Source: Virgibacillus alimentarius
GTDB taxonomy: Bacteria > Bacillota > Bacilli > Bacillales > Amphibacillaceae
Direction: 5' to 3'
DNA: 57,874 bases
Assembly (NCBI RefSeq): GCF_000709085.1
Contig: NZ_JFBD01000052.1
Coordinates: forward strand, 1 to 57,874
A program made the position numbers and the translations under genes. This document shows positions 5,270-49,012 of this stretch, in pieces. The stretch's first letter is position 1; every line of letters begins with the position of its first letter. The notes under the pieces were generated by a model, which saw only the letters and a list, made by a program, of their open reading frames with translations, searched no databases and was not told the origin of the DNA.

Positions 5270-5305
5270 AGTCAGATAGATAAGTTATTAACAGGGGGTG
5301 GGATG

Positions 5306-5944
5306 ATGAGTGGTATTGTTAAGCCTGAATCACTTCATCTTCAAGCATATCATATTATAAAAAAATCCATTATGGATGGTGAATTCAAGCCGTCTGAACG
5401 TGTGGTGGAATCAAAGATCGCTACGAAGCTGGGCATTAGCAGAGGACCAGTCAGAGAAGCAATCCGTATGCTTATTCAAGATGGACTGCTTAATTATAAT
5501 GATGGATTTGTTCGTGTTTATCAGCCGCATGTACAGGATGTTATTGATTTATTTGAGTGCCGTGAAAGTTTGGAAACACTTGCAATTCAACTAGCGATTA
5601 AAAATATTTCAGAGGCGGAAAAAGAGCAATTAGCCGTTAATTTAAAAGAAACGAAAGAAGTACCAGATCATGGGGTAGAGCTTGGGCAATTAGACCAGCA
5701 ATTCCATACGATTATCATTGGGGCTTCAAAAAATAGACAGTTAATTGAATTGATGGATACCATTAAGACGAAAATTCATTATATGCGTAAAAGTATGGTA
5801 GGCGGAGATTTTTATCCGGAATTTATTGAGGAGCACGAACATCTTTATGAATTAATACGTGAGAAAAAAGAGGAAAAAGCTGTAAAGTTCATGCATGCTC
5901 ATATTAAAAGAGCTTTAGATGGTGTACTCATGCATATTGGTTAA
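5306..5944 (+). CDS. GntR-family regulator with FCD domain (LldR/FadR-like)
   Basis: A 212-residue transcription factor. The winged helix lies at about residues 10-70 with KLGISRGPVREAI, and the FCD domain follows with LFECRESLE, LDQQFHTIII and EEHEHLYELI, the last two carrying His residues typical of the family. Start chosen at ATG 5306, 5 nt after GGGGGTG; another ATG lies directly before it. FCD regulators of this type often sense lactate or other hydroxy/oxo acids, and the next gene is an FMN-dependent hydroxyacid oxidase. Operators of the same design occur before both genes and before the PheDH operon, so this protein may coordinate all three. Confidence 0.85.
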   Translation: MSGIVKPESLHLQAYHIIKKSIMDGEFKPSERVVESKIATKLGISRGPVREAIRMLIQDGLLNYNDGFVRVYQPHVQDVIDLFECRESLETLAIQLAIKNISEAEKEQLAVNLKETKEVPDHGVELGQLDQQFHTIIIGASKNRQLIELMDTIKTKIHYMRKSMVGGDFYPEFIEEHEHLYELIREKKEEKAVKFMHAHIKRALDGVLMHIG

Positions 5945-8078: not shown

Positions 8079-8108
8079 GTTGACAGTTAACAGTCAACAG
8101 AATATACT
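8079..8108 (+). promoter_or_regulatory. Promoter with three overlapping GntR half-sites before PheDH
   Basis: TTGACA (8080-8085), 17 bp, TATACT (8103-8108) forms a clear promoter. Over its -35 box and spacer lie three half-sites in one phase: GTTGAC-A-GTTAAC-A-GTCAAC (8079-8098). These can be read as two overlapping operators, 8079-8091 and 8086-8098, of the same type as at 5255 and 6037. A further lone GTTTAC half-site is at 8121-8126, just after the expected start point. Confidence 0.75.
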
Positions 8109-8188: not shown

Positions 8189-8223
8189 TGGGAATAAAAG
8201 TAAAAAACTGGAGGTAGTGTGTG

Positions 8224-9357
8224 ATGAAACAACTAGCAAAAAAGAACGAACAGGATATATTTCAAAAAATAGCAGGGCATGAACAGGTCGTTTTTTGTAA
8301 TGACCCAATCACTGGTTTGCAAGCTATTATTGCGATTCATGATACAACCCTCGGTCCAGGTCTTGGTGGAACGCGGATGTACCCTTATGAAAATGTAGAT
8401 GACGCACTTGAGGATGCACTTCGTTTATCTGAAGGAATGACATACAAATGTGCAGCAGCTGATATTGATTTTGGCGGTGCAAAGGCTGTAATTATTGGAG
8501 ATCCGGATAAAGATAAAACCCCTGCGATGTTTCGTAAGTTTGCACAATACGTCGATTCATTGAATGGTAGATTCTATACAGGAACAGATATGGGAACAAC
8601 CATGGATGATTTTGTTCAAGCACTAAAAGAAACGAATTTCATTAATGGAATTCCTGAAGCATATGGCGGAAGCGGTGATTCATCCATACCAACATCTCAA
8701 GGTGTTGTATATGCCATCCAAGCAACAAATAAGCACGTCTTTGGTGATGACAGTCTTGGAGGAAAAACGTATGCGATTCAAGGTTTAGGAAAAGTAGGTT
8801 ATAAAGTAGCAGAGCATTTACTTCAAGCTGGAGCAGATTTATTTGTAACGGATATTCATGAACATGTACTTGAATCGATCCAAGATAAGGCAAAAGAATT
8901 AGGCGGTTCTGTAACCGTTGTAGGAAGTGACGAAATTTACAGTGTGGATGCAGATGTCTTTGTACCTTGTGCAATGGGCGCGGTTCTCAACGATGAAACC
9001 ATTCCTCAATTAACAGTAAAAGCTGTTGTAGGCTCAGCAAATAATCAGCTTAAAGCCAAAACGCATGCACAAGTACTTGCAGATAAAGGTATTTTATATG
9101 CACCGGATTACATTGTAAATGCAGGTGGTTTAATTCAAGTTGCTGATGAGCTATATGAACCAAATAAAGAACGTGTATTACTTAAGACCAAAGCAATCTA
9201 TGACTCTCTTCTAGAAATCTATGAACAAGCGAAACTAGCAGATATTACAACAGAAGAAGCAGCAAATAGAAAATGTCAGCAAACCATCGATGAACAACGA
9301 AACAGAAACAATTTTTTCGCTCGTGATCGCAGACCAAAATGGAATATTCGTGGGTAA
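8224..9357 (+). CDS. pdh: Phenylalanine dehydrogenase
   Basis: An NAD-dependent amino-acid dehydrogenase of 377 residues that deaminates L-phenylalanine to phenylpyruvate and ammonia. The N-terminal domain carries [26 protein letters not shown] and the catalytic lysine region [18 protein letters not shown]. The nucleotide-binding domain has [20 protein letters not shown]. The stretch [14 protein letters not shown] is that of PheDH; leucine dehydrogenases have a GNPSPVTAYGV-type sequence there, so PheDH is favoured. GGAGG precedes ATG 8224 by 9 nt. The E1-E2-E3 genes follow after 32 nt and would oxidise the oxoacid product. Its promoter shows GntR operators and two cre boxes. Confidence 0.9.
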
Positions 9358-9389
9358 AAGCCAAAAATAATTCGTGAAGGGTGAATGAA

Positions 9390-10448
9390 ATGAAGGAAAA
9401 GTATCCAATGATGGAGATTATTGATAAGGCCGGTAAATTCGTCTCAAAGGAATATGAAAAGGAAATAACGAAGGAACAAGCACAAAAATTTTATTATCAT
9501 ATGCTACGAATTCGTACCTTTGATCGGAAAGGGAAAGCTCTGCAGCGTCAGGGAAGAATTGGAACCTACGTGCCTTTTGAAGGACAGGAGGCATCACAAG
9601 TAGGAAGTGCATTAGTTCTTGAAGAGAAAGACTGGATGTTTCCAACATACCGTGATCACGGGGCTACATTAACATTTGGAGCTGAAATGGATCGTGTATT
9701 GCTTTATTGGAACGGACGTGTGGAAGGCTCCGTCCCATCGAAAGAAAAAAATATTTATCCTGCTTCTGTTCCAATTGCGACACAGCTCCCACATGCTACA
9801 GGTGCTGCAATGGCAGAAACGTATAAAGGAACAAATAATGTAGCGATTGCTTATTTTGGTGACGGTGCGACTTCAGAAGGGGATTTTCATGAAGGTATTA
9901 ATATAGCGAGTGTCTTTCAGGCACCAGTTGTATTTTTTAACCAAAATAATGGATTTGCCATTTCTGTTCCAATTGAAAAACAAATGAATTCTGAAACGAT
10001 TGCCCAAAAATCAGAGGCATATGGCATACCGGGAGTACGTGTAGATGGTATGGATGTTTTCGCTGTGCATTTCGCAGTAAAAGAAGCTTTTGAAAGAGCG
10101 CGGAACGGAGAAGGTCCAACTTTAATTGAAGCGGTAACATGGCGTTTCGGTGCTCATACAACTGCTGATGATCCTACAAAATACCGCGATCAGGAAGAAA
10201 CAGAGAAGAAACGGGAAGAATTGGATCCAATTTTACGATTAGAACGTTTTATGAAAAATCATGATATGTGGGATGAAGACTGGGCTGAAAAAATAGAAAA
10301 GGAAATTGAAGCAGAGTTAGATGACGCAATTGTAGAAATGGAAAAATTCCAGAAACCTGATCCTGCTGATATGTTTGACTATGTTTTCGAGGAGCCAACT
10401 TGGACGATTCAAGAGCAAAAGGAAATCTTAAAGGGGGCGACAAAATAA
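9390..10448 (+). CDS. 2-oxoacid dehydrogenase E1 component, alpha subunit
   Basis: A thiamin-diphosphate enzyme subunit of 352 residues that decarboxylates a 2-oxoacid. The TPP motif runs from AYFGDGATSEGDFHEG to FFNQNNGFAI, and MFPTYRDHG, IPGVRVDGMD and the HTTADDPTKYR loop are present. It resembles PDH E1-alpha, but the GAEMDRVLLYWNGR region is divergent, so it is a specialised paralog rather than the housekeeping pyruvate dehydrogenase. Start chosen at ATG 9390, 7 nt after GAAGGGTG, rather than the GTG at 9381. Its stop overlaps the E1-beta start by one base. Position after PheDH suggests phenylpyruvate or branched-chain oxoacids as substrate; this is inferred. Confidence 0.88.
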   Translation: MKEKYPMMEIIDKAGKFVSKEYEKEITKEQAQKFYYHMLRIRTFDRKGKALQRQGRIGTYVPFEGQEASQVGSALVLEEKDWMFPTYRDHGATLTFGAEMDRVLLYWNGRVEGSVPSKEKNIYPASVPIATQLPHATGAAMAETYKGTNNVAIAYFGDGATSEGDFHEGINIASVFQAPVVFFNQNNGFAISVPIEKQMNSETIAQKSEAYGIPGVRVDGMDVFAVHFAVKEAFERARNGEGPTLIEAVTWRFGAHTTADDPTKYRDQEETEKKREELDPILRLERFMKNHDMWDEDWAEKIEKEIEAELDDAIVEMEKFQKPDPADMFDYVFEEPTWTIQEQKEILKGATK

Positions 10449-11470
10449 TGGCAAAGATGTTAGAGAAGCAGGCGAATGAATCAATGGAAACAACTAAATC
10501 AATGACACTGATTCAAGGGGTTACTGATGGCTTAGGAACGATGCTTGATGATGATGAAAACATCCTAGTGCTTGGTGAAGATGTTGGTGTAAATGGAGGC
10601 GTTTTCCGAGCTACAGATGGCTTGCAGGAAAAGTTTGGCGAAAGAAGAGTGGTCGATACACCACTAAGTGAAGCGGGGTTTGTGGGTGCAGCTGTCGGAA
10701 TGGCGCTTAATGGATTGAAGCCGGTTGTAGAAATTCAGTTCCTTGGTTTCATTTATCCAGCGTATGAACAAATTGCAACACATGTTACACGTGCACGTTC
10801 ACGTACAATGGGCCATTATCATTTACCAATGGTTATTCGTGCTCCGTATGGTGCAGGGGTAAGATCACCAGAAATTCATTCAGATAGTATTGAAGCTTTA
10901 TTTACCCATTTACCAGGAATCAAAGTTGTTTGTCCATCAAACGCCTATGACGCAAAAGGATTGCTTGTCGCTTCGATTGAAGATCCTGATCCTGTATTAT
11001 TCTTAGAGCCAATGCGTCTTTATCGCGGTGAGCGTGTTGAGGTACCTACTGAAAAGTATTCCATTGAGTTAGGAAAAGGGGAGCGGATTATCGAAGGTGA
11101 GGATGTAACTGTTCTTGCATGGGGAGCAATGGTTCCGATCGCTAAAAAAGCAGCCGAGCAAATGAAGGAAAAAAATATCTCCTGTGATGTTATTGATCTT
11201 CGTACATTGTATCCATTAGATAAAGATATCATTGCAGAATCCGTCCAAAAAACAGGTCGCGTTGTCATCGTTCATGAAGCACAATCAACTGGCGGGGTAG
11301 GAAGTGAGATCACATCCGTTATTAATGACAAAGCCTTTTTATACTTAAAATCTCCAATTGAACGTGTAACAGGGTTTGACGTGCCAGTTCCACTGTTTGC
11401 TTTGGAAAATGATTATTTGCCAACACCTCAGCGAGTGCAGGATGCGATCCAAAAAGTAATTGATTTTTAG
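10448..11470 (+). CDS. 2-oxoacid dehydrogenase E1 component, beta subunit
   Basis: The 340-residue partner of E1-alpha; together they form the heterotetramer that holds TPP. Family marks are LGEDVGVNGGVFRATDGL, TPLSEAGFVGAAVGMALNG, the MVIRAPYGAG loop and C-terminal VIVHEAQSTGGVGSE. Translation starts at ATG 10448, overlapping the E1-alpha stop as TAATG, with AAGGGGG at 10431-10437; the open frame upstream of it lies in the alpha gene and is not used. Tight coupling fits the equal stoichiometry of the subunits. Confidence 0.9.
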   Translation: MAKMLEKQANESMETTKSMTLIQGVTDGLGTMLDDDENILVLGEDVGVNGGVFRATDGLQEKFGERRVVDTPLSEAGFVGAAVGMALNGLKPVVEIQFLGFIYPAYEQIATHVTRARSRTMGHYHLPMVIRAPYGAGVRSPEIHSDSIEALFTHLPGIKVVCPSNAYDAKGLLVASIEDPDPVLFLEPMRLYRGERVEVPTEKYSIELGKGERIIEGEDVTVLAWGAMVPIAKKAAEQMKEKNISCDVIDLRTLYPLDKDIIAESVQKTGRVVIVHEAQSTGGVGSEITSVINDKAFLYLKSPIERVTGFDVPVPLFALENDYLPTPQRVQDAIQKVIDF

Positions 11471-11484
11471 GAGGAGAACAAGCA

Positions 11485-12708
11485 ATGGAAGTAAAATTTC
11501 ATGACATTGGAGAAGGAATGAATGAAGGAGAAATTTTAACGTTTTTTGTTAAAGTTGGCGATGAGGTAACTGTTGACCAACCGCTTGTGGAGATGCAAAC
11601 AGATAAAATGGTCGCAGAAATCCCATCTCCAACTGCGGGCACCGTCAAGGCGATTCACTTTAATACAGGGGAAGTCGTGACTGTCGGGACACCTATCATG
11701 GAAATTGATAATGGCGAGGAAAACAGTCCTCCGGAAAAAGCAGAAGAACCCAAAAAACAGGAAAAACAATCTGCTCCACAACCAGTCGAAGAGAAAACCT
11801 CAACTAAGAAAAAGCATAACCGTGTCCTAGCAGCCCCATATACACGAAAAATCGCACGTGATAAAGGGGTAGATATAGAAGAGATTCAAGGTACAGGTCC
11901 TGCCGGCCGTGTGACAGAAGAAGATGTGTATCAGTTTGTAAACGGTTCAGCGGGTAAAGCGGGAGTTCAGGAAGCTGCTGCGGCGAGTGTCCCCGCTGCA
12001 AATCAAAAAGAACAAGCAAGCGATACAATTCCTTTTAAAGGAATCAGGAAACAAATTGCAAAAAATATGAGCTATTCCTTGCAGACTATCCCACATGTCA
12101 CGCATTTTGAGGAAGCAGATTTAACAAACTTGCTTGAACTGCGAAAAGAATTGAAAGAATCTGGGGATAACATTTCCGTTGTAGCATTTTTCTTAAAAGC
12201 GCTAGCTATCTCACTAAAAGAGCATCCAATCTTTAATGCAAGACTTGATGAAGAAAATGAAGTCATTCATTTACTTAAACAATATAATTTTGGTCTTGCT
12301 ACAGATACGGAAGCAGGATTGTTGGTACCAGTCCTTCCAAATGTGGATCAAAAATCACTACGTGAAATTCATACAGAAATGAAAGATCTAACGAAAAAAG
12401 CGCAAGAAGGAAAATTAAGTGCTCAAGAAATGGCAAATGGCACCTTTACGATTAGTAATGTTGGGCCACTTGGCGGAATGGGAGCTACACCAATTATTAA
12501 TCATCCGCAAACGAGTATTTTGGCATTTCATAAAACGAAAAAAGTGCCTGTTGTCATGGATGATGATGAGATTGCAATCCGCTCCATGATGAATATGTCG
12601 CTTTCTTTTGATCATCGTGTTGCTGATGGCGCAGCATCTGTAAGGTTTACAAATCGGTTTGTAGAATTACTGGAAGAGCCGAAAAAGTTACTATTGGAGT
12701 TGGTTTAA
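11485..12708 (+). CDS. Dihydrolipoamide acyltransferase (E2) of the 2-oxoacid dehydrogenase complex
   Basis: The 407-residue core subunit that passes the acyl group from TPP to CoA. One lipoyl domain occupies residues 1-77, with the modified Lys41 in TDKM. A charged, proline-rich linker follows (about 78-112), then the peripheral subunit-binding domain (about 115-153, APYTRKIARDKGVDIEEIQG). The catalytic domain fills about 180-407 and ends with the active-site motif SFDHRVADGA. A single lipoyl domain is usual for Bacillus complexes. AGGAGG overlaps the preceding stop region and ATG 11485 follows. It belongs to the PheDH operon. Confidence 0.92.
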   Translation: MEVKFHDIGEGMNEGEILTFFVKVGDEVTVDQPLVEMQTDKMVAEIPSPTAGTVKAIHFNTGEVVTVGTPIMEIDNGEENSPPEKAEEPKKQEKQSAPQPVEEKTSTKKKHNRVLAAPYTRKIARDKGVDIEEIQGTGPAGRVTEEDVYQFVNGSAGKAGVQEAAAASVPAANQKEQASDTIPFKGIRKQIAKNMSYSLQTIPHVTHFEEADLTNLLELRKELKESGDNISVVAFFLKALAISLKEHPIFNARLDEENEVIHLLKQYNFGLATDTEAGLLVPVLPNVDQKSLREIHTEMKDLTKKAQEGKLSAQEMANGTFTISNVGPLGGMGATPIINHPQTSILAFHKTKKVPVVMDDDEIAIRSMMNMSLSFDHRVADGAASVRFTNRFVELLEEPKKLLLELV

Positions 12709-14139
12709 ATGGTTGTAGGAGAAATTGCAGAAAGCCGAGATTTAGTCATTATTGGCGGCGGTCCTGGCGGCTATAATGCCGCCATCCGGGCTGCACAACT
12801 TGGACTTGATGTAACCATCATTGAGAAAGGAAAAATGGGAGGCGTTTGTTTAAATGAAGGATGTATTCCTTCAAAAGTCTTTGCACACGCAGCAAAGGAA
12901 TATGCCTCTGTTCCAAATCTATCCATACTTGGCATCAATATAGGAGAGCCAACTTTTGATTTTCATGCACTAATGAAATATAAAGACAGAACAGTTACAC
13001 AACTCAGAAAAGGCGTAGAGGCTTTATGTGCAGCCAATAAAATTGAAATCATTGAAGGACAAGCTACTTTCACAGCAGAGAATAAGATTGGCGTTGAGAA
13101 TGGTCATCAATTTGACGTGTATGAATTTAACCATGCGATTATTGCTACAGGAAGTGCAACTATAAAACCTGACTTTTTGCCTAAGCAAAGTGACCGTGTT
13201 TTATTTTCTGATGTAATTTACAATCTAGATGAAATGCCACAAGATTTAATCGTATATGGCAGTAATTATATTTCACTGGAAGTTGCATTTAGCTATCATA
13301 ATCTCGGTGCTAATGTAACAATGATTTTAGATGAAACAGATGATTTTTCATTTGATACGTCTATTAACAGAGAATTAAAGCGTATTTTGAAGAAACAAAA
13401 AATTAAAGTGCATCGCGGATTTAAAGTGGAGGAAGTGCATGCTTCTGAAGATGACGTTGAAGTCCAACTTGCTAAAGATGGAAAAGAAGAAACTTTAAAA
13501 GGTACGCATATCTATGTAGCTACGCAGCACAAGGCAGACATAGCCGAATTAGGACTGGAACGCTTTGGTCTTAAAATGACGGAAGACGGTCTCGTTGAAA
13601 CAGATGCACAAATGCGGACATCGTTGGACAAGCTTTTTGCCGTAGGAGATATCACAGAAGGAACACCTTCTGCAGTGAAAGCGATTAAAGAAGGAAAAGT
13701 AGCTGCTGAGACCATTGCTGGACTAAACAGTGAAGTTGATCTAACTTTCCTTCCATCAATTGTTCATAGTATTCCAAAGATCGCGTCAGTAGGATTAACC
13801 GAAGAAGAAGCTGCTGAAGCAGGGTACAAAGTGAAAACGAGCCAATTTGCAAATAGTGGCAATAGCTACGCAATGATTACAAATGAAAAGAGTGGAATAA
13901 CGAAAATAATTAAAGATGAAGAAACAGATTTACTTCTGGGATTCCATGCAATTGGAGCGGGAGCTGTTGAATTAATCAGCACGGCTGTAACTGCTCTTGA
14001 AATGGTAGGACGAGACGAAGATTTAAATTTCCCATTATACCCGCATCCTAGTTTTAATGAGACGATACTCGAAGCCGTGGAAGGTCTGGAAGAAAAAGCG
14101 ATTCATATGCCACCACCTAAGAAGACTGCGAAAGTATAA
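12709..14139 (+). CDS. Dihydrolipoyl dehydrogenase (E3)
   Basis: A 476-residue FAD enzyme that reoxidises the lipoyl group and reduces NAD. It has the N-terminal FAD fold (VIIGGGPGGYNAAIRAAQLG), the redox disulfide in GGVCLNEGCIPSK, a central NAD-binding fold, the second FAD contact at FAVGDITEG, and a C-terminal dimer domain with HPSFNETILEAVEG, which holds the catalytic His-Glu pair. The central GSNYISLEVAFSYHNLG shows Asn-Tyr-Ile where GGG-type glycines are usual, a local divergence. The start codon follows the E2 stop directly; GGAG within the E2 end lies 9 nt upstream, so the two are translationally coupled. Confidence 0.9.
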   Translation: MVVGEIAESRDLVIIGGGPGGYNAAIRAAQLGLDVTIIEKGKMGGVCLNEGCIPSKVFAHAAKEYASVPNLSILGINIGEPTFDFHALMKYKDRTVTQLRKGVEALCAANKIEIIEGQATFTAENKIGVENGHQFDVYEFNHAIIATGSATIKPDFLPKQSDRVLFSDVIYNLDEMPQDLIVYGSNYISLEVAFSYHNLGANVTMILDETDDFSFDTSINRELKRILKKQKIKVHRGFKVEEVHASEDDVEVQLAKDGKEETLKGTHIYVATQHKADIAELGLERFGLKMTEDGLVETDAQMRTSLDKLFAVGDITEGTPSAVKAIKEGKVAAETIAGLNSEVDLTFLPSIVHSIPKIASVGLTEEEAAEAGYKVKTSQFANSGNSYAMITNEKSGITKIIKDEETDLLLGFHAIGAGAVELISTAVTALEMVGRDEDLNFPLYPHPSFNETILEAVEGLEEKAIHMPPPKKTAKV

Positions 14140-14160
14140 AAGTAATGAAGGAGACTTTTT

Positions 14161-15606
14161 ATGTTCCGAATTAAACCTGTACAAGTACCATCTTTATCTG
14201 AGGCAGTATTGATAACAGTCGCAATTCTATTCATCATGGGTTCCAGCATCATCATTTATGATGCACCTCCGCATATCCCTTTAGCTATTTCACTTTTACT
14301 TCTGGTTGTATATGGACTGATAAAGAAAGTGCCATATAAAGATTTAGAAGAAGGAGTAACGGAAGGTGCCAAGGCCGGCATGGCTGCAGTATTTCTCTTC
14401 TTCTTTATTGGAATTTTAATTGCCTCCTGGATGCTGGGAGGCACGATTCCAACCCTTATTTACGCTGGCTTTGAACTAGTGACACCAAGCTTCTACTTTG
14501 CGATTGTTTTTGTCATAACAGCAATTGTAGGTATGAGTGTTGGGAGTTCTTTGACAACAGTAGGAACAGTTGGCGTTGCTTTTATCGGAATATCAAGCGC
14601 AATCGATGCTTCACTTGCAATTACAGCAGGTGCGATCGTATCAGGTGCGTTCTTTGGTGATAAAACTTCACCACTATCCGATACGACAAATATGGCTTCA
14701 TCCATATTAAAAGTGGACTTATTTGAACACATCAAAAACATGACATGGACAACAGTCCCAGCATTTGTGATAACCTTTATTTTATTCGCTATATTATCAC
14801 CTAAACTTACAGATACAAATTTCGGAAAAATGGAACAATTTCAGCAAGGATTACTGGATACAGACCTTGTCCACTGGTATAATGGTGTCATTCCAATCGT
14901 TGTTTTGTTAATTTTCTCAATAATGAAAGCGCCTGCATTACTGGCGCTCGCTGCCGGATCCCTTAGTGCCATTGCAATTTCCTATATTAATGGAGCCACA
15001 CCGGTTGGGGACCTGTTTGGTGTTTTATTCGGCGGATTTGTTTCTGAAACAGGCGTCTCAGAAATAGACGAATTATTGACCCGGGGCGGCATAGAGGATA
15101 TGTTATTTACCATCGGTCTTGTCTTACTTGCTCTAAGTATGGGCGGATTGCTATTTACCTTAGGAATCGTGCCAAGATTGCTTGCTTCCATTGAAAATAT
15201 GCTAAAGAAAGTAAGATCTGTGATTTTAACATCGGCACTCACTGCAATCGGTATTAATGTTCTTGTTGGGGAACAATATTTATCAATCCTATTAACCGGC
15301 GAATCTTTTCAATCCCAATATAAAAAGGTCGGTCTGACAAATAAAAATTTAGCAAGGGTTTCCGAAGATGCAGGAACTGTCGTTAATCCACTTGTCCCGT
15401 GGAGTGTTACAGGGGTCTTTATCACAACCGTTCTAGGGGTTCCGACCTTACAATATTTCCCTTTTGCAATCTTTTGTTTGCTATGCCCCTTATTAACTAT
15501 ATTTTATGGGTTTACCGGGAAAACATTGACCTATATAGACAAAGAAAAGGAAGGAGCAGAACGAAATATCCACGCAGAAAACATGGCAAAAAGAAAAATG
15601 ATTTAA
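14161..15606 (+). CDS. NhaC-type Na+/H+ antiporter family transporter
   Basis: A polytopic membrane protein of 481 residues and about 11-12 spans. NhaC-family signatures include SVGSSLTTVGTVGVAFIG, AGAIVSGAFFGDKTSPLSDT and VSEDAGTVVNPLVPWSVTG. The family includes sodium/proton antiporters and also solute exchangers such as malate-lactate antiporters. The gene starts 21 nt after E3 with AAGGAG before ATG 14161 and appears to be the last member of the PheDH operon. A role in exchanging an amino acid or organic acid for Na+ or H+ is more likely than general pH homeostasis, but this rests on context only. Confidence 0.82.
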   Translation: MFRIKPVQVPSLSEAVLITVAILFIMGSSIIIYDAPPHIPLAISLLLLVVYGLIKKVPYKDLEEGVTEGAKAGMAAVFLFFFIGILIASWMLGGTIPTLIYAGFELVTPSFYFAIVFVITAIVGMSVGSSLTTVGTVGVAFIGISSAIDASLAITAGAIVSGAFFGDKTSPLSDTTNMASSILKVDLFEHIKNMTWTTVPAFVITFILFAILSPKLTDTNFGKMEQFQQGLLDTDLVHWYNGVIPIVVLLIFSIMKAPALLALAAGSLSAIAISYINGATPVGDLFGVLFGGFVSETGVSEIDELLTRGGIEDMLFTIGLVLLALSMGGLLFTLGIVPRLLASIENMLKKVRSVILTSALTAIGINVLVGEQYLSILLTGESFQSQYKKVGLTNKNLARVSEDAGTVVNPLVPWSVTGVFITTVLGVPTLQYFPFAIFCLLCPLLTIFYGFTGKTLTYIDKEKEGAERNIHAENMAKRKMI

Positions 15607-15699: not shown

Positions 15700-15966
15700 C
15701 ATCGGTTGATATATGTTCTTTTCCGGTTGCTATCCCCGCACACCGGTTGATACATGTTCTTTTCCGGTTGCTATCCCCGCGCACCGGTTGATATATGTTC
15801 TTTTCTGGTCGATATCCCCGCGCACCGGTTGATATATGTTCTTTTCCGGTTGATATCCCCGCACACCGGTTGATATATGTTCTTTTCCGGTTGCTATCCC
15901 CGCACACCGGTTGATACATGTTCTTTTCCGGTTGATATCCTCGCGCAGCGGTTGATATATGTTCTT
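15700..15966. repeat. 41-bp tandem repeat, about 6.5 copies
   Basis: Units begin at 15700, 15741, 15782, 15823, 15864, 15905 and 15946, each exactly 41 bp apart; the last is partial. The unit reads roughly CACCGGTTGATATATGTTCT then TTTCCGGTTGATATCCCCGCG, so CCGGTTGATAT occurs twice per unit at unequal spacing. Copies differ at only a few positions (T/C in ATATATG/ATACATG, GATATC/GCTATC, CGCGCA/CGCACA). GC content is above that of the neighbours. The period is not a multiple of 3. The remaining gap from 15644 to 16159 has no convincing gene. Confidence 0.92.
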
Positions 15967-41196: not shown

Positions 41197-42591
41197 ATGT
41201 TCACAATTAATGACTTAATAGAGGGATATGCAAATAAACAATATTCACCAGTTGAAATAACGCGTGCGTATATTGAGCGTGCCAAGCAAAACTCACATCT
41301 AAATGCATATATCACATTAACGGAAGATACAGCAATCGAACAAGCTAAAATCGCTGAAAAGCGCTGGCATTTAGGTGAGGCAGGGCGCTTGGAAGGAATA
41401 CCACTATCTTATAAGGATAACTATCATACAAAAAATGTAGCGACTACAAGTGGCTCTAAGGTTGATGCAGATTTTGTTCCGGACGAACACTCGAATCTTG
41501 TTCAAACTTTAACAAATGAAGGGGCAGTGATGATAGGTAAGAACAACATGCATGAATTTGCTTTCGGAATTACGAATAACAACCCTTTTTACGGGCCGTC
41601 TCGTAATCCTTGGAATACGGATTTGATTTCAGGTGGTTCAAGTGGCGGATCTGCTGTATCTGTAGCTACAAATACCAGTATAGCCTCATTGGGAACGGAC
41701 ACAGGGGGATCAATTCGGATACCTTCAGCTTGTTGTGGCTTAGTCGGATTAAAACCTACCAATGACTTGCTTAGCAAATCAGGGATAACCTTATTATCCT
41801 GGAGTCTGGACCATGCAGGGCCTATCACACGTAATGTCTCTGATCTCATTGTGATGATGGAAGCGTTAGTCGGTAGAGAAATATCGGAAACGAAAATTCA
41901 ATCGACAGATTTGCTCGGTTTAAAAGTAGGAGTACCTTCTAATTTCTTTACCGAACAAATTGAACAGGAAGTGTTAGATGCTTATCATCAAACATTGCAA
42001 AAGTTAGAGGAATTAGGTGCTGTTTTAGTCGAAGTAAAAGTGCCTGATGCAGAGGAGGCTTTAGCCTTAACATTTACCTTAGCAACCGGCGAAGCAGGAT
42101 TTTTACACCGAGAACGAATGGAATCCCGCTTGGATAAATATGGAGAAGATGTTCGCCAAATATTACAATCAAGTCCTTCTCTTATTGCGCTAGATTATAT
42201 GGAAGCATTGCATAGACAACAGGAGATTTCGAATAGTTTTGATGAATTAATGGAAGAAATTGATGTACTTGTTGCACCAACTTTACCTATTGCTCCAAAG
42301 CCAATCGGAAAAGAAATAGTTACGATTAACGGAGGAAATGAGCCAATTTTTAATTGCATGATTCGCTATACTTCTTATTTCAATTTAACAGGACATCCTG
42401 TTTTAGCTCTGCCGGTAGGGATAACTTCGGATAGCCAATTACCTGTTGGAGTGCAGTTGGCAGGCAATAAAAGAGATGAAGGGCAATTACTTAAAATTGC
42501 CAAAATCTTTGAAAGACATTATTTACATGATTTCTATAAACAGCGAGAAAAGGTATGCAATGCTTCAAAAGCAGATGAAGTTAATTCGTAA
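41197..42591 (+). CDS. Amidase (amidase-signature family, GatA/aryl-amidase-like)
   Basis: A 464-residue amidase with the Ser-cisSer-Lys triad: Lys73 in LSYKDNYHT, and the two serines in the glycine-rich signature SGGSSGGSAVSV and GTDTGGSIRIPSA. It is monocistronic, with its own promoter, and no gatC or gatB lies beside it, so it is a catabolic amidase rather than the tRNA-dependent amidotransferase subunit. GAGAGGG precedes ATG 41197. The substrate is unknown; the neighbourhood (aromatic acid activation, proline uptake) suggests scavenging of amides. A 19-bp near-identical direct repeat flanks the gene. Confidence 0.85.
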   Translation: MFTINDLIEGYANKQYSPVEITRAYIERAKQNSHLNAYITLTEDTAIEQAKIAEKRWHLGEAGRLEGIPLSYKDNYHTKNVATTSGSKVDADFVPDEHSNLVQTLTNEGAVMIGKNNMHEFAFGITNNNPFYGPSRNPWNTDLISGGSSGGSAVSVATNTSIASLGTDTGGSIRIPSACCGLVGLKPTNDLLSKSGITLLSWSLDHAGPITRNVSDLIVMMEALVGREISETKIQSTDLLGLKVGVPSNFFTEQIEQEVLDAYHQTLQKLEELGAVLVEVKVPDAEEALALTFTLATGEAGFLHRERMESRLDKYGEDVRQILQSSPSLIALDYMEALHRQQEISNSFDELMEEIDVLVAPTLPIAPKPIGKEIVTINGGNEPIFNCMIRYTSYFNLTGHPVLALPVGITSDSQLPVGVQLAGNKRDEGQLLKIAKIFERHYLHDFYKQREKVCNASKADEVNS

Positions 42592-42690
42592 GCGGAAAAT
42601 AAAAGAGGTTGCACGCAGCAATAACGAGTTTTCTTTACAGGCGTAAACGAAAAAATGCTAATATATAAAGAATGGAATGAAAATTTGAAT

Positions 42691-42741
42691 GAACAATAGC
42701 AGGGAAATTTGCAAATCATTCCCCTGCTATTGTTCTGTGTT
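42691..42741. terminator. Terminator after the amidase gene
   Basis: GAACAATAGCAGGG (42691-42704) pairs with CCCCTGCTATTGTTC (42721-42735), followed by TGTGTTTTA. The loop contains AAATTTGCAAATCATTCCC, nearly identical to 41092-41110. Confidence 0.75.
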
Positions 42742-42807
42742 TTAGTAGTGAAATATCAAAGGAAAGAGAGACTAATCTCAGTTGGCTAAGAATGAAATGA
42801 TAAAACT

Positions 42808-43230
42808 TTATTTCTCCATAAAGTTTTCCTTTTTTCTATAAACCATTCCTTCCATAGTTGCGATAAGATCATCTGAAGCATTATATACCTTCATTTCATA
42901 GGTTGCTATTTTAGGTGTTAATTTCGTTTCCTTTGCAATACAAATGATTTCCTCCCCCTTTTTTCCAGGGGCCAGATAAGACATGTTGACATTTAATCCT
43001 ACAGCTGTTCTCCCGTGTGAATTACTTGCGACTGCAAAAGCATAATCTGCCAATGAGAAAATAGCTCCACCATTAGCAGCACCATTGAAATTCAGTAAAT
43101 CTTTCGTAATCGGCATCTTTACTTTTGCATACCCTGCTTCACAATGTTCTAACATGATGTTTAAGTGGTTAGCAAATGGGTCCGATGTGAAAAAATCGAT
43201 CATTTGCTTATCATTTGTTTTCGTTTCCAT
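42808..43230 (-). CDS. paaI: PaaI-like hotdog thioesterase
   Basis: A 140-residue hotdog-fold thioesterase. NFNGAANGGAIFSLADYAFAVASNSHG (shown in part by GAANGGAIFSLADYA) holds the catalytic Asp and helix of the PaaI group. Such enzymes hydrolyse phenylacetyl-CoA or its hydroxylated forms and free trapped CoA. The gene lies 74 nt after paaK on the same strand; a 13-bp stem hairpin sits between them, so it may be expressed less strongly than paaK. AGGAGAAT precedes ATG 43230. Confidence 0.85.
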   Translation of the reverse strand: METKTNDKQMIDFFTSDPFANHLNIMLEHCEAGYAKVKMPITKDLLNFNGAANGGAIFSLADYAFAVASNSHGRTAVGLNVNMSYLAPGKKGEEIICIAKETKLTPKIATYEMKVYNASDDLIATMEGMVYRKKENFMEK

Positions 43231-43264
43231 GTAAATTCTCCTAACGTGATGTAATTCTTGTATT

Positions 43265-43301
43265 AATAAAGAAGAGAGGGGGGGAGATTCTCTTCTTTAT
43301 T
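43265..43301. terminator. Hairpin between paaK and paaI
   Basis: AATAAAGAAGAGA (43265-43277) and TCTCTTCTTTATT (43289-43301) are perfectly complementary over 13 bp around a G-rich loop. On the minus strand it follows the paaK stop and ends in CTTTATTAAT, so it may act as a partial terminator in the paaK-paaI unit. Confidence 0.6.
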
Positions 43302-43304
43302 TGT

Positions 43305-44633
43305 TTATTGTGTAATATGTTCTGTTCTTTGATCTACGACGCGTACCGCTTTCCCTTCTGATCTTGGTATCGATTTAGGTGGTAGAATCGTAACATCTAC
43401 ACTTACTAGACACTCATCCTTGATTGTAGATTGAATATAGTCTTTGAGATTACCAATATTCTCATGGTTGATATCTTGCTTGTATTGATGGAAAGTAGGT
43501 TCAGATAATTCAACCTGCAATTCAACTGCATCCATTGCTCCGTCTTTTTTAAGATGGATCTGGTAGTGTGGAGAAAGTGCTTTCATTTGTAGCAAGGATC
43601 TCTCCATTTCAAATGGGAAAACATTAACACCCCGAATAATCAGCATATCATCAATTCGGCCTTTAACACGAGACATGCGCACGGTTGTACGTCCACAATT
43701 ACATTTTTTACGTGTAATCGTAGCAATATCTCCGGTCCTATACCTGATAACCGGAAAGGCTTCTTTCGTTAAACTTGTAAAAACGAGCTCTCCTTCCTCA
43801 CCGTCAGGAACTGTTTCTAATGTGTCAGGGTCAATCACTTCAACGAAGAAATGGTCTTCCTGAATATGCAGACCGTCCTGTTCTTCGTGACATTCAATTG
43901 CGACACCTGGTCCGACAACTTCACTCAATCCGTAAATATCCACAGCCTTAATATCAAACTTTTCTTCCAATGTATTTCGCATCTCCTCAGACCAAGGTTC
44001 AGATCCAAATATACCATATTTTAAATTGGTCTTTCGTGGATCTTTTCCTTGTTCCTCCATTACCTCGGCGATATGAAGTGCATAGGAAGGAGTGGAACAT
44101 ATTACTTGTGGTTTCAAATCTTCTAGGAGCAAAATTTGCCGATTTGTATTTCCTCCTGATACCGGAACGGTAGTAATGCCTAGCTTCTCACCGCCATCAT
44201 GTAATCCCAGTCCACCTGTGAATAAACCATATCCATAAGCATTGTGCATCACTTCGTTTTGGCTCCCGCCAGCAGCCGTAATGGATCTGGCAACAATCTC
44301 TGCCCAGTTGTCAATGTCATTTTCGGTATAGGCAACAACTGTAGGCTTCCCGCTTGTACCGGATGAAGCATGCAAGCGGATAATATCTTCCATCGGAGTG
44401 GCAAAGAGACCGTATGGATAATGATCTCTTAAATCCGATTTTACAGTAAAAGGTAGTTTTTTAATATCTTCTATTGATTTAATATCGTTTGGTTTTAGAT
44501 GTAATTCATCAAATTTTTTCTTATAAAATTCTACATTTTGATAGACTCGTTCCACTGTTTCTTGCAGGCGACTTAACTGTAAAGTATCCATTTCATTTCT
44601 TTCTAGTGTTTCTATTTCTTTATTAAAAATCAA
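43305..44633 (-). CDS. paaK: Phenylacetate-CoA ligase
   Basis: A 442-residue adenylate-forming ligase making phenylacetyl-CoA from phenylacetate. Family marks are PFTVKSDLRDHYPYGLFA, the ATP motif HASSGTSGKPTVVAYT, YGLSEVVGPGVA, RYRTGDIATI and KGRIDDMLIIRGVNVFP. Four cysteines or histidines around KCNCGRTT match the zinc-like loop of the family. The length is normal. The promoter on the minus strand has a cre-like box. Genes for the aerobic phenylacetyl-CoA oxygenase are not in the window; a TetR regulator and aldehyde dehydrogenase lie divergently upstream. Confidence 0.93.
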   Translation of the reverse strand: MIFNKEIETLERNEMDTLQLSRLQETVERVYQNVEFYKKKFDELHLKPNDIKSIEDIKKLPFTVKSDLRDHYPYGLFATPMEDIIRLHASSGTSGKPTVVAYTENDIDNWAEIVARSITAAGGSQNEVMHNAYGYGLFTGGLGLHDGGEKLGITTVPVSGGNTNRQILLLEDLKPQVICSTPSYALHIAEVMEEQGKDPRKTNLKYGIFGSEPWSEEMRNTLEEKFDIKAVDIYGLSEVVGPGVAIECHEEQDGLHIQEDHFFVEVIDPDTLETVPDGEEGELVFTSLTKEAFPVIRYRTGDIATITRKKCNCGRTTVRMSRVKGRIDDMLIIRGVNVFPFEMERSLLQMKALSPHYQIHLKKDGAMDAVELQVELSEPTFHQYKQDINHENIGNLKDYIQSTIKDECLVSVDVTILPPKSIPRSEGKAVRVVDQRTEHITQ

Positions 44634-44771
44634 ACTGATTCCTCCTTTAGGTTGAAAGAATGATTGACGTAAAAACGTCTACTTCCTGCTATTTATTCTT
44701 CCATTATTGGGAATTATATCCATTGTGATTATCTGATTTTGTAGCAAGCATATAATATAACAGATTAATCA

Positions 44772-44792
44772 ATAACGTGATATTTTCGTTAT
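44772..44792. promoter_or_regulatory. Dyad in the paaK leader
   Basis: ATAACG-N9-CGTTAT (44772-44792) lies at the expected paaK transcription start. It could be the operator of the divergent TetR protein or another regulator; nothing in the sequence decides this. Confidence 0.4.
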
Positions 44793-44797
44793 CATTT

Positions 44798-44826
44798 ATA
44801 ATAGCGCTTACATATCAGAAAGTCAA
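44798..44826 (-). promoter_or_regulatory. paaK promoter with cre-like box
   Basis: On the minus strand TTGACT (44826-44821), 17 bp, TATTAT (44803-44798). TGTAAGCGCTATTA (44812-44799) is a cre-like box with one departure (T for the late C), overlapping the -10 region. The spacer TTCTGATATGTAAGCGC is strikingly like the amidase spacer TTCTTATGTGAAAGCGC at 41124-41140. Confidence 0.7.
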
Positions 44827-44976
44827 TATAAGTATGAAAATTATAATAATTATCAACTGAGTTCTATGGACAAATGAAAGGTATGAAAACCCATATACTC
44901 TATTAAACTGCTTTCGTTGATGCTATACTTTTTGTAGACGCAGAAATATATATCGCAAAAGTTGCAGGAGGATTTC

Positions 44977-45558
44977 ATGGTTAAATTAACGGAGACTAAA
45001 ATTAAGGAAAGCGCACTAACACTTTTTATAAAGAAAGGCTATGCAGGCACCTCTCTTACGGATATTGGAAAAGAAGTGGGAATAAAAAAGCAATCCATCT
45101 ATACGCATTTTAAAAGTAAAGAAGATTTATTTTTACAAGTAATGAACCAGGTGATTCAAGAGGAAATAGCCTTTTTAAACGATTATTTTACCAATCAAAA
45201 ACATGTATCACTTCACGACATTTTATATCATTTTATCAAAAAACTAAAAGAGCGATTCATATCTGATGGAGAAGAAAATATTAAATTTTTACTTCGAATG
45301 ATGTTCATTCCGCCAAATCGTATTAAGGAAACGGTAATATCTAAAGCTCTTACCTATTACGATCAGTTAAAGAATCACATCGAACATACTTTTCATCTGC
45401 ATAAAGATGTTATAAACGTTTCTGTTGAAGCTGGGAAAATTTCCTTTTTAAATTTGTTTGATGGGTTATTGGTTGAACTTATATATATCAATATAAGAAA
45501 TTTTGAGAAAAGGTTTCAAATTTCTTGGAACATTTATTGGCAAGGAATAAAAAAGTAA
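44977..45558 (+). CDS. TetR-family transcriptional regulator
   Basis: A 193-residue regulator. The helix-turn-helix is at about residues 7-52: ALTLFIKKGYAGTSLTDIGK then VGIKKQSIYTHFKSKEDLF. The C-terminal ligand domain is not of a family I can name. Start chosen at ATG 44977, 5 nt after GGAGG; an upstream TTG (44962) overlaps this site. It is divergent to paaK and precedes the aldehyde dehydrogenase-aminotransferase genes, so it may control either. A dyad in the next promoter (45591-45622) is a good operator candidate. Confidence 0.85.
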   Translation: MVKLTETKIKESALTLFIKKGYAGTSLTDIGKEVGIKKQSIYTHFKSKEDLFLQVMNQVIQEEIAFLNDYFTNQKHVSLHDILYHFIKKLKERFISDGEENIKFLLRMMFIPPNRIKETVISKALTYYDQLKNHIEHTFHLHKDVINVSVEAGKISFLNLFDGLLVELIYINIRNFEKRFQISWNIYWQGIKK

Positions 45559-45566
45559 ATTATTAC

Positions 45567-45622
45567 TTGCAAAAGTTCTGATAATTTTGTACAATAACTT
45601 ACGAACGGTCGGAAGTTATTGT
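45567..45622 (+). promoter_or_regulatory. Promoter and dyad operator before the aldehyde dehydrogenase gene
   Basis: TTGCAA (45567-45572), 17 bp, TACAAT (45590-45595). ACAATAACTT (45591-45600) and AAGTTATTGT (45613-45622) are a perfect 10-bp inverted repeat overlapping the -10 box and start site. The centre CGAACGGTCGGAAG partly matches CNAACGNNCGTTNG, the operator I recall for a TetR-type phenylacetate regulator (PaaR) of Thermus. The same sequence could in part work as the tetR terminator. Confidence 0.65.
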
Positions 45623-45696
45623 GCAAATAATCTCATTGAGGAGGATTGGTTCTATAAATCATCATTTTATTGAAAGTTAATTTTTTTTACAACGAT

Positions 45697-45710
45697 TGTA
45701 AGCGGTAACA
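45697..45710 (+). promoter_or_regulatory. cre box upstream of the aldehyde dehydrogenase gene
   Basis: TGTAAGCGGTAACA matches TGNAANCGNTNNCA at every fixed position. It lies in the leader 49 nt before the start codon, downstream of the predicted promoter, so CcpA could block elongation. Confidence 0.75.
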
Positions 45711-45759
45711 ATAATGTAAATTATTTGGATTAAAAATATTTTCTTAGAAGGTGAATGGA

Positions 45760-47229
45760 ATGGAACAATCATATCAGTTATTTGTCGATGGGGAATGGAT
45801 GGATTCGATTTCTAAAGAAACGTTTAAATCGTATAATCCTGCTACTGGCGAGGTAAATGCTGTTGTAGCAAAGGGAGGAAAAGAAGATATTGATTTAGCA
45901 GTGAAAGCAGCTAGAAAAGCTTTCCAGTCCGGCCCGTGGGCTGAAATGGCCCCTAGTGACAGAGGCCGTCTATTAAATAAGGTAGCACAGGAATTGTGGA
46001 AGAAAGCTGACTACTTAGCGGAAGTGGAAACAAAAGACAATGGACTTCCAATTAATGAAAATAAGATGATTGCAATGCCTTCCATGATTGATGTTTTAGA
46101 GTTTTACGCTGGGCTTGCAAATAAAGTACAAGGAGAGACGTTAGCGTCACCTCCCGGAAGATTTAATTATACGTTGAAGGAACCACTTGGAGTTGTTGGT
46201 GCAATTATTCCTTGGAATTTCCCGTTGATGTTAGCGATGTGGAAGATTGCCCCAGCTTTAGCTGCAGGAAATACGATTGTACTAAAACCTGCTGAACAAA
46301 CACCGATCAGTCTGTTGGAAATGGTGAAGATTTTCAAGGAAGCAGGGATTCCTGATGGAGTCATTAACGTTGTTCCAGGGTATGGAAGTGACGCGGGGAA
46401 TGCATTATCTTCGCATCCAGATGTTGATAAAGTTGCATTTACAGGGTCAACATCTACAGGGAAAATTATCATGCAGGCGGCCAGTAAAAATCTAAAACCG
46501 GTAAGTTTAGAACTTGGAGGAAAAAATCCGAATATTGTATTTGACGATGCAAATATCGAAAATGCGGTGAATGGCTCGATGTTTGGTATTTACTTTGGTC
46601 AGGGGCAAGTCTGTGCATCCGGCTCCAGATTGTATGTACAAGAAAGTATTTATGAACAATTTATGGAAGCTTTTATCGATAAAACACAGAAAATCAAAGT
46701 TGGAAATCCTTTAGATCCTACTACTCATATGGGGCCACAAGTTTCCAAGCAGCAGCTAGAGCGAATTGAACATTTCGTAAAAACAGGGGTGGATCAGGGA
46801 GCAAAACTTGTCATTGGTGGAGAAAGAGCAAAAGTTGACAATGGAAACTTCTTCACTCCAACTGTTTTTGAAAACGTTTCAAGCGATATGACAATTGCCA
46901 AGGAAGAAATTTTTGGGCCTGTATTATCTGTTATCAAATTTAAGGATGAAGAAGATGCATTGCAAAAAGCGAATGATACACTGTACGGCCTAACTTCCGG
47001 TATATGGACGGAGAATCTAAAGCGAGCGCACCGAATGGTAAAAGGTTTACAATCAGGCACCGTATATGTCAATACATTCAGTATGCTTGATAGTGTTGCT
47101 CCTTTTGGAGGTACAAAGCAAAGTGGATTTGGAAGAGAACTGGGGATCCAGGCATTGGATATGTATACACAAACCAAAAATGTTTGGATGGACCTTAATG
47201 ATGAACATCTCAATTGGTATGGCGTGTAG
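45760..47229 (+). CDS. NAD-dependent aldehyde dehydrogenase
   Basis: A 489-residue aldehyde dehydrogenase. The Rossmann fold shows IPWNFPLMLAMWKIAPALAAG and FTGSTSTGK; the general base Glu is in LELGGKNPNIVF and the nucleophile Cys in GQGQVCASGSRL. It is of the broad betaine/phenylacetaldehyde dehydrogenase group. Start chosen at ATG 45760, 7 nt after AGAAGGTG. The class III aminotransferase gene follows after 55 nt; together they would convert a primary amine to an aldehyde and then to an acid, and PaaK is next door for phenylacetate. The amine is not proven. Confidence 0.9.
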   Translation: MEQSYQLFVDGEWMDSISKETFKSYNPATGEVNAVVAKGGKEDIDLAVKAARKAFQSGPWAEMAPSDRGRLLNKVAQELWKKADYLAEVETKDNGLPINENKMIAMPSMIDVLEFYAGLANKVQGETLASPPGRFNYTLKEPLGVVGAIIPWNFPLMLAMWKIAPALAAGNTIVLKPAEQTPISLLEMVKIFKEAGIPDGVINVVPGYGSDAGNALSSHPDVDKVAFTGSTSTGKIIMQAASKNLKPVSLELGGKNPNIVFDDANIENAVNGSMFGIYFGQGQVCASGSRLYVQESIYEQFMEAFIDKTQKIKVGNPLDPTTHMGPQVSKQQLERIEHFVKTGVDQGAKLVIGGERAKVDNGNFFTPTVFENVSSDMTIAKEEIFGPVLSVIKFKDEEDALQKANDTLYGLTSGIWTENLKRAHRMVKGLQSGTVYVNTFSMLDSVAPFGGTKQSGFGRELGIQALDMYTQTKNVWMDLNDEHLNWYGV

Positions 47230-47284
47230 TCATTTCTCAAAAAAGAGAAACTTGTTTCTATAATAAAAAATGGAGGTTTTACGC

Positions 47285-48646: not shown

Positions 48647-48676
48647 ACTAAGTTTTTAACGTACATCAACGATATA

Positions 48677-48760
48677 GCTAGGAAGGTAGACGGTATTCAT
48701 TTAAAGAAATAAGCATTTCTAAAAACGAATGAATCATACGTTTACTTTCCTGGCTTTTTT
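48677..48760 (+). terminator. Long terminator after the aminotransferase gene
   Basis: GCTAGGAAGGTAGACG (48677-48692) pairs imperfectly with CGTTTACTTTCCTGGC (48739-48754) and is followed by TTTTTT. An inner ATTCATT/AATGAAT pair extends the stem. The rest of the interval to 49012 is AT-rich without a gene. Confidence 0.75.
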
Positions 48761-49012
48761 GTAGTTAAAGTTCCAATATATTCGTTTGTGTTATTAAAGA
48801 TCGAAGTGAAAGGAAAATATGCCTATAATTGACGGAATATTGTGAATATAAAGTACTGAAATCTACAGTTGCGATATTTCTATTAATGATAGAAAAGAGA
48901 AGCTGTAGGTAGCAATAAGAAATAAAATTATGCTAGATCAGAAAACGAAATTATAAGTGAACTTTTAATTCCCATATTTAGAATAACGATAAATTTTTTT
49001 AGGAGGTTTATC

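Follow-up and report, generated by a model that had tools for sequence, protein, structure and literature searches.

A window of 57,874 nucleotides from Virgibacillus alimentarius, which is one contig (C52) of a host genome of 3.05 Mb that is 99.8% complete, carries at positions 8224-15606 a run of six closely packed genes, all on the plus strand. They encode a phenylalanine-dehydrogenase-type amino acid dehydrogenase (PheDH), the E1alpha, E1beta, E2 and E3 components of a 2-oxoacid dehydrogenase complex, and an NhaC-family carrier (Table 1). An earlier note on this DNA had described these genes as a complete operon leading from phenylalanine to an acyl-CoA, and the gene set itself is borne out by the open reading frames and by family searches. 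The E1alpha stop codon and the E1beta ATG overlap by 1 nucleotide, the E2 stop codon abuts the E3 ATG, and the remaining intergenic gaps are 14-23 nucleotides; the genes are presumably co-transcribed. The layout goes beyond chance, because many related genomes show the same order of genes. Below, C denotes contigs of the host genome, L the locus stretches and G the genomes that were compared.

The PheDH protein matches the ELFV dehydrogenase families PF02812 and PF00208, both over cut-off, and no NCBIfam model reached its cut-off (the best was ScyB, with a score of 366 where 600 is needed). E1alpha matches PF00676 and scores 477.2 bits with TIGR03181 (cut-off 411.35), E3 scores 424.6 with TIGR01350 (cut-off 408.8), and the carrier scores 413.5 with TIGR00931 (cut-off 370). 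E1beta and E2 fall below the cut-offs of every model that they match, with pyruvate dehydrogenase model scores of 304.3 (cut-off 321) and 361.7 (cut-off 722), respectively; E2 has lipoyl, E3-binding and acyltransferase domains. The lipoyl lysine, the HxxxD motif of E2, the CxxxxC motif of E3 and the GDG...NN motif for thiamine diphosphate were all found, and we take these motifs to have their customary meanings. All four components of a 2-oxoacid dehydrogenase complex are present, with their catalytic domains and motifs.

Table 1. Features of the operon and of the region upstream of it, in window coordinates
Feature	Coordinates	Strand	Basis or detail
Phenylalanine-dehydrogenase-type amino acid dehydrogenase (PheDH)	8224..9357	+	ELFV domains; pocket residues G121, N142, L304
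E1 alpha subunit, thiamine-diphosphate dehydrogenase	9381..10448	+	PF00676, TIGR03181; clade placement
E1 beta subunit	10448..11470	+	PF02779/PF02780; TTG start at 10400 also open
E2 acyltransferase, lipoyl and E3-binding domains	11485..12708	+	Family searches
E3 dihydrolipoyl dehydrogenase	12709..14139	+	TIGR01350 over cut-off
NhaC-family carrier, candidate tyrosine/aryl-acid carrier	14161..15606	+	TIGR00931 over cut-off
GntR/FCD regulator	5303..5944	+	PF00392 and PF07729
Near-perfect palindrome TTGACAGTTAACAGTCAA, candidate operator, overlaps -35 box	8080..8097		18 bases
Promoter-like TTGACA-17-TATACT, 11/12	8080..8108	+	Consensus match

The host has only three E1alpha matches, one in the window, one on C44 and one on C73. 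The C44 copy belongs to a pyruvate dehydrogenase (PDH)-type operon with the order E1alpha-E1beta-E2-E3. The C73 copy belongs to a branched-chain (BKD)-type operon in which genes for leucine dehydrogenase (LeuDH), E3, E1beta and E2 adjoin E1alpha, with the gene of a sigma-54-type regulator (named by eye) upstream. The parts of the window complex are 40-50% identical to those of the PDH-type operon and 32-41% identical to those of the BKD-type operon, and the complex corresponds to neither. Because separate operons of these two types exist, neither pyruvate nor branched-chain oxoacids need the operon in the window.

The company kept by this E1alpha was surveyed across the order in 299 genomes, with E1alpha relatives taken at E values up to 1e-95 and PheDH-type enzymes up to 1e-120; the linkage and co-occurrence counts ignore relatedness. 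E1alpha was present in 127 genomes (123 without four whose best match reaches only 46-48% identity), the PaaA/PaaC family of phenylacetate degradation (paa) proteins in 132, and PheDH-type enzymes in 116; by genus, the corresponding figures were 56, 59 and 49 of 117. E1alpha and PaaA/C occurred together in 116 genomes, E1alpha without PaaA/C in 11, PaaA/C alone in 16, and neither in 156. Of the 107 genomes with both E1alpha and PheDH, 105 have the two genes on one contig and 97 have them within 1.5 kb of each other; E1alpha and PaaA shared a contig in 100 of 116 genomes and lay within 25 kb in 91. In a control set of 13 genomes, PDH- and BKD-type paralogues (28 genes) came within 25 kb of PaaA in a single genome, as against 9 for the E1alpha of the clade studied here. 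A gene order running paa, PaaX, TrpX-like ABC transporter (TrpX score 245, cut-off 390), FlK-type thioesterase, PheDH, E1alpha, E1beta, E2 and E3 is seen, for example, in Heyndrickxia, Cytobacillus, Rossellomorea and Metabacillus, with a variant in Exiguobacterium, and the more distant loci of Thermoactinomyces mirandus and Kroppenstedtia read PaaF-PaaG-PheDH-E1alpha-E1beta-E2.

Seven genomes that have E1alpha yet lack PaaA and a PheDH match were considered as counterexamples to an aryl role and were rejected as such, since HpaB, of the 4-hydroxyphenylacetate (hpa) genes, is near E1alpha in 7/7. Indeed, among the 11 E1alpha genomes without PaaA, seven have HpaB 9.5-14.9 kb away, and the other four match at 46-48% identity. 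In the seven stretches from those genomes, an aminotransferase gene adjoins the complex in place of PheDH (that of L200 was confirmed by Pfam). In L210 (G051) an E1alpha of the clade lies beside a LeuDH-like gene (51% identical to the host LeuDH) that is not of the PheDH type. Haloarchaeal E1alpha proteins (L178, L180 and others) are 47-50% identical to that of the window and form their own tree branch, and the stretches examined around them held no PheDH, paa or hpa matches.

The E1alpha of the window falls inside the clade that is linked to PheDH, paa and hpa genes. An aryl-pyruvate role is well supported, because the E1alpha relatives are tied to PheDH and paa genes throughout the order, and the substrate of the complex is very probably, judging from sequence and gene context, an aryl pyruvate rather than pyruvate or a branched-chain oxoacid. 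The proposal in the earlier note of a dedicated complex rather than a generic branched-chain one is thus supported, both by this linkage and by the separate operons on C44 and C73.

To ask which aryl pyruvate is involved is to ask where the window falls within the clade. From 126 stretches scanned, 13 were dropped for want of an E1alpha match, 31 for identity under 56% and 5 as duplicates, which left 77 non-redundant loci. By our thresholds on tblastn matches of reference proteins, 48 of these are paa-type, 12 hpa-type and 2 mixed, and 15, the window among them, are unlabelled. Among the reference names, PaaK, PaaX, PaaA, PaaC, PaaD and (from C13) HpaB, HpaD, HpaE, HpaG and HpaI pass NCBIfam cut-offs; the others (PaaF, PaaG, gCA, YybH and the like) were given by similarity or by eye. 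In an E1alpha tree made by a quick method, the window groups with L099, L100, L101 and L119 (SH-aLRT 99). Genes for HpaB, HpaD, HpaE-like and HpaG-like proteins lie beside the operon in L099 (extended by L226), L101 and L119; in L100 no hpa genes were found within the 13 kb examined, which stops at a contig end. A second hpa-linked group consists of L135 (Oceanobacillus) and L151 (Sporosarcina), and physical linkage of operon and hpa genes is present in L099, L101, L119 and L135. In a third group (Halobacillus, Salibacterium and others) an aminotransferase replaces PheDH, and NhaC and an alpha/beta hydrolase are added. The hpa label requires three changes on the E1alpha tree, of which the well-supported branches alone force only one.

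The accessory genes follow this division in part. NhaC is found in 9/12 hpa-type loci (seven of these nine in the aminotransferase group, the others being L101 and L135), in 3/15 unlabelled loci including the window, and in 0/48 paa-type and 0/2 mixed loci. The window NhaC is 73% identical to that of L101 and 69% identical to that of L135. The TrpX-like ABC transporter is found in 30/48 paa-type, 2/2 mixed, 1/15 unlabelled and 0/12 hpa-type loci. Only the aminotransferase/NhaC group has the alpha/beta hydrolase (7/12 hpa-type, 2/15 unlabelled and 0/48 paa-type loci). A thioesterase was considered as a mark of hpa-type loci only and was rejected, since 38/48 paa-type loci have an FlK-type thioesterase, mostly just upstream of PheDH, and two further paa loci have one of the L151 type; this FlK-family (fluoroacetyl-CoA thioesterase-like) gene, as in L105, L111 and L123, is a possible counterpart of PaaI. 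As an analogy only, nhaC is part of the tyrosine decarboxylase cluster tyrS-tyrDC-tyrP-nhaC of lactic acid bacteria, as described in the available text of PMC3492074. The host has a second NhaC-family gene (L223:5352-6770), which adjoins its hpa genes and whose product is 36% identical to the window NhaC.

The regulatory gene upstream gives a further link to this lineage. In L099, L100, L119 and L135 the operon is preceded by a GntR gene whose product is 66-70% identical to the window GntR, and by this sequence comparison the window GntR is the orthologue of these regulators. At an identity of at least 50%, such a GntR occurs in 3/12 hpa-type loci and 0/48 paa-type loci, as well as in L100 and the window. 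The window carries the operon GntR and the NhaC of the hpa-linked subtype, neither of which is present in every hpa-type locus. In the window, the GntR gene is set apart from the operon by the gene of an FMN-dependent 2-hydroxyacid dehydrogenase (PF01070; 6117-7289) and a DinB-like gene; one may speculate that the former product could convert an aryl lactate into an aryl pyruvate. We propose that GntR controls the operon, and a palindrome at the promoter-like site just upstream of PheDH is a candidate operator. A copy with 1 mismatch lies between GntR and PheDH in L135 (L135:8223), and none within 2 mismatches was found in L099, L100, L101 or L119. The pattern, which was drawn from 8080-8097, matches one other place in the host genome within 2 mismatches, on C86, and the same pattern reversed as a control likewise matches one place; promoter-like sites overall are at chance level (24 observed, shuffle mean 25.0).

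A second kind of evidence comes from the substrate pocket of PheDH, numbered here from the GTG at 8221. The window enzyme has G121 and L304 where the host LeuDH has Ala and Val, at positions that we take to set specificity. The position of Asn142 in the window enzyme is that of Asn145 in the Lysinibacillus sphaericus PheDH, whose change is reported to alter the choice between phenylalanine and tyrosine; a literature search on Asn145 of PheDH gave no match. By its 21-residue distance from the pocket glycine, Asn142 corresponds to V144 of the Bacillus badius PheDH, which the available text of PMC8543943 names as one of the hydrophobic residues that make up the substrate pocket. Asn occupies this position in 6/6 hpa or mixed rows, 1/44 other paa rows and 3/15 unlabelled rows including the window, in a count from which only the host LeuDH row was dropped, in which two rows that have paa as well as hpa genes count as hpa, and in which near-copies (e.g. 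L112 and L120) remain. The lone paa row with Asn is L163 (Sporosarcina), which groups with the mixed locus L164; its stretch is 11 kb long and stops at a contig end right after E1alpha. Rows with this residue fall into two distinct groups of the PheDH tree, both of them supported (100/99 and 99/96). Two genomes have paired copies that differ in the same way: in G013 the hpa copy (L099) carries Asn and the paa copy (L102) Val, and in G020 L104 (hpa) likewise carries Asn and L103 (paa) Val. The host itself has Asn in the window PheDH and Thr in a copy near the paa genes on C8, which falls in the same Asn group.

In G020 the complex is divided between these loci, with PheDH and E2 at L104 and PheDH, E1alpha and E1beta at L103, and this genome might assemble one complex from the two. 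Few columns of E1alpha, E1beta and E2 change in parallel across the three hpa groups. The best is E1alpha 109, with Tyr or Phe in 46/46 paa rows and His, Ser or Asn in 12/17 rows of the hpa groups; the window itself is unchanged there, and the column is not used as an argument.

The host has downstream genes for both products. On C13, HpaB, HpaD, HpaE, HpaG-N, HpaG-C and HpaI exceed NCBIfam cut-offs, and neither PheDH nor E1 was among the matches in this hpa stretch; on C8, PaaA, PaaC, PaaD, PaaK and PaaX exceed theirs and further paa-like genes are present. A simple model can be drawn for the use of the operon. The NhaC-type carrier would import or exchange an aromatic amino acid or aryl acid, and the PheDH-type enzyme would use NAD+ to deaminate tyrosine (or phenylalanine) to 4-hydroxyphenylpyruvate (or phenylpyruvate). 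The private E1-E2-E3 complex would then decarboxylate the oxoacid and pass it to CoA, yielding 4-hydroxyphenylacetyl-CoA (or phenylacetyl-CoA) and NADH. A thioesterase would free 4-hydroxyphenylacetate to feed the hpa genes on C13, and phenylacetyl-CoA would feed the paa cluster on C8. Because the host has hpa and paa genes but no other such E1, a single complex probably serves both oxoacids. Judged by its lineage, the window complex would more probably make 4-hydroxyphenylacetyl-CoA, phenylacetyl-CoA being a likely second product. A thioesterase-like open reading frame (named by eye) lies near the hpa genes of C13 (L223:18777-19295) and has no NCBIfam match at E 1e-40. Elsewhere in the window, positions 41197-50389 hold genes for an amidase, a phenylacetate-CoA ligase resembling PaaK (on the minus strand; at 641.5 bits narrowly short of the 646.3 cut-off), an aldehyde dehydrogenase, a class III aminotransferase and an amino acid permease, which by family content look like a module from aromatic amines or amides to phenylacetyl-CoA.

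These findings lead us to regard the operon as probably a dedicated aryl-pyruvate dehydrogenase route, mainly for tyrosine and possibly for phenylalanine as well. Tyrosine as the main substrate of the window copy is somewhat favored. A more specific and more tentative proposal, for which the balance is close to even, is that this is a new tyrosine route, in which an Asn-type dehydrogenase and a lipoyl-dependent complex would lead to 4-hydroxyphenylacetyl-CoA, to be hydrolysed to 4-hydroxyphenylacetate for the hpa genes; the clade would otherwise take phenylalanine to phenylacetyl-CoA in Bacillales and be hpa-linked in three places of its tree. The suggestion in the earlier note of a route from phenylalanine to phenylacetyl-CoA thus survives in its aryl part and probably gives way as to phenylalanine as the main substrate, the window grouping with an hpa-linked lineage of tyrosine type.

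Several observations weigh against this interpretation. The operon lies on neither the hpa contig (C13) nor the paa contig (C8), and so lacks the hpa linkage of its relatives. Among its four E1alpha clade-mates, L099, L100 and L119 have no NhaC and L101 has no GntR orthologue, only a relative of 29% identity; position 109 of the window E1alpha is still Tyr, so that a tyrosine type cannot be read from any E1 residue. The operon has no thioesterase gene, and a relative of the L099 FlK-type thioesterase was not found in the host genome by a search that had no positive control. The HpaC- and HpaF-like genes of C13 score under their cut-offs, and HpaH was not found in the host by a search whose control was positive in only 1/14 genomes. 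An HpaB-family protein occurs in 210/299 genomes, and the B. subtilis control has one too, so that its presence by itself says little and only nearness counts. Order-wide, 20/127 E1alpha genomes have no PheDH match and 9/116 PheDH genomes no E1alpha, in counts already noted to disregard relatedness. Finally, the E1alpha passes the NCBI model for pyruvate dehydrogenase E1alpha, and family models therefore favor pyruvate. The chances of tyrosine are slightly lowered because NhaC is common to only two near relatives and HpaH was not found.

The alternative that survives best, possible but distinctly less probable, is a route specific to phenylalanine, in which PheDH would form phenylpyruvate and the complex phenylacetyl-CoA for the paa genes, with tyrosine incidental. 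The predominance of paa-type loci in the clade (48/77, with only 12 hpa-type) fits such a route, as do the paa genes of a host with no other E1 of this clade, but the lineage of the window falls with hpa-linked loci and shares its Asn142 and GntR with hpa-type loci, and the paa contig has a PheDH of its own, 72% identical to that of the window and with Thr at the pocket position. It is improbable that the operon is instead a second branched-chain or pyruvate complex, acquired beside an amino acid dehydrogenase and used in general amino acid catabolism. The E1alpha match to TIGR03181 would suit such a complex (16/16 aligned members of the E1alpha clade match this model, the window member above its cut-off), the nearest solved structures are the pyruvate dehydrogenase E1 chains 1w85/3duf, and ELFV dehydrogenases can be broad in specificity; set against this are the PDH- and BKD-type operons elsewhere in the host, the subthreshold scores of E1beta and E2 with all matched models, the Gly and Leu of PheDH where the host LeuDH has Ala and Val, and the order-wide linkage to paa and hpa genes. 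A biosynthetic or overflow role, with aryl-acetyl-CoA made for aryl-capped metabolites or arylacetate exported through NhaC, is very improbable: NhaC could export, and there is a biosynthetic precedent in PglB/PglC of Streptomyces pristinaespiralis (below), but the relatives lie among paa or hpa degradation genes and the host has both sets, in an analysis that made no search aimed at biosynthetic neighbours.

The preferred reading, an aryl-pyruvate dehydrogenase complex serving mainly tyrosine, has partial counterparts in known systems. The Bacillus bkd operon, with the bcd leucine dehydrogenase, likewise places an ELFV amino acid dehydrogenase beside an oxoacid dehydrogenase complex, but the host has its own copy of that type on C73, as described above. 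The pdhABCD operon of Bacillales shares with the window the order E1alpha-E1beta-E2-E3, the identity level given above for C44 and the E1alpha model, but the host has a separate operon of that type on C44, and the relatives of the window operon are linked to PheDH and paa or hpa genes. The indolepyruvate:ferredoxin oxidoreductase IorAB of Aromatoleum is an anaerobic ferredoxin enzyme with an architecture other than that of a lipoyl-dependent NAD complex. Its function resembles the proposed role, since it makes phenylacetyl-CoA directly from phenylpyruvate according to the available text of PMC9765128. The PglB/PglC pair is an E1alpha/E1beta pair to which, in the portions of PMC7089894 and PMC10685826 at hand, the conversion of phenylpyruvate to phenylacetyl-CoA is assigned for L-phenylglycine and pristinamycin synthesis. 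By described function rather than by sequence, this pyruvate-dehydrogenase-like E1 pair for phenylpyruvate resembles the window pair; it differs in serving antibiotic synthesis in an actinomycete and in being listed there as part of pglA-E, without E2 or E3, whereas the window system is proposed to be catabolic and has PheDH and a private E2 and E3. The B. badius PheDH shares the pocket Gly and Leu of the window enzyme (G123 and L306 in the available text of PMC8543943) and differs in having V144 in place of Asn.

A search by titles and the opening lines of abstracts, with most subscription journals outside its scope, found no literature that describes, for Bacillales, an aryl-pyruvate dehydrogenase complex linked to PheDH, and a review of the paa pathway (PMC9493321) contains in its main text none of the terms 'phenylpyruvate', 'oxoacid' and 'dehydrogenase complex'. 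The spellings 4-hydroxyphenylpyruvate and 4-hydroxyphenylacetyl-CoA together retrieved nothing, and 4-hydroxyphenylacetyl-CoA alone, in this spelling, retrieved just a title on Salmonella methionine.

Directly 3' of NhaC, positions 15703-15966 hold a tandem repeat of 41 bp in 6.4 copies with 92% matches; a minus-strand open reading frame of 163 amino acids across it has no Pfam match and appears spurious.

Automatic annotation would name the complex in the window a pyruvate dehydrogenase. If the reading proposed here is correct, this clade of complexes would fill the step from the aromatic amino acids to ring cleavage by the paa and hpa pathways, without the phenylacetaldehyde route. It would also come in two natural series, a phenylalanine type and a tyrosine type, in which a single pocket residue of PheDH varies with the downstream pathway, and single genomes would offer paired copies of the two types.

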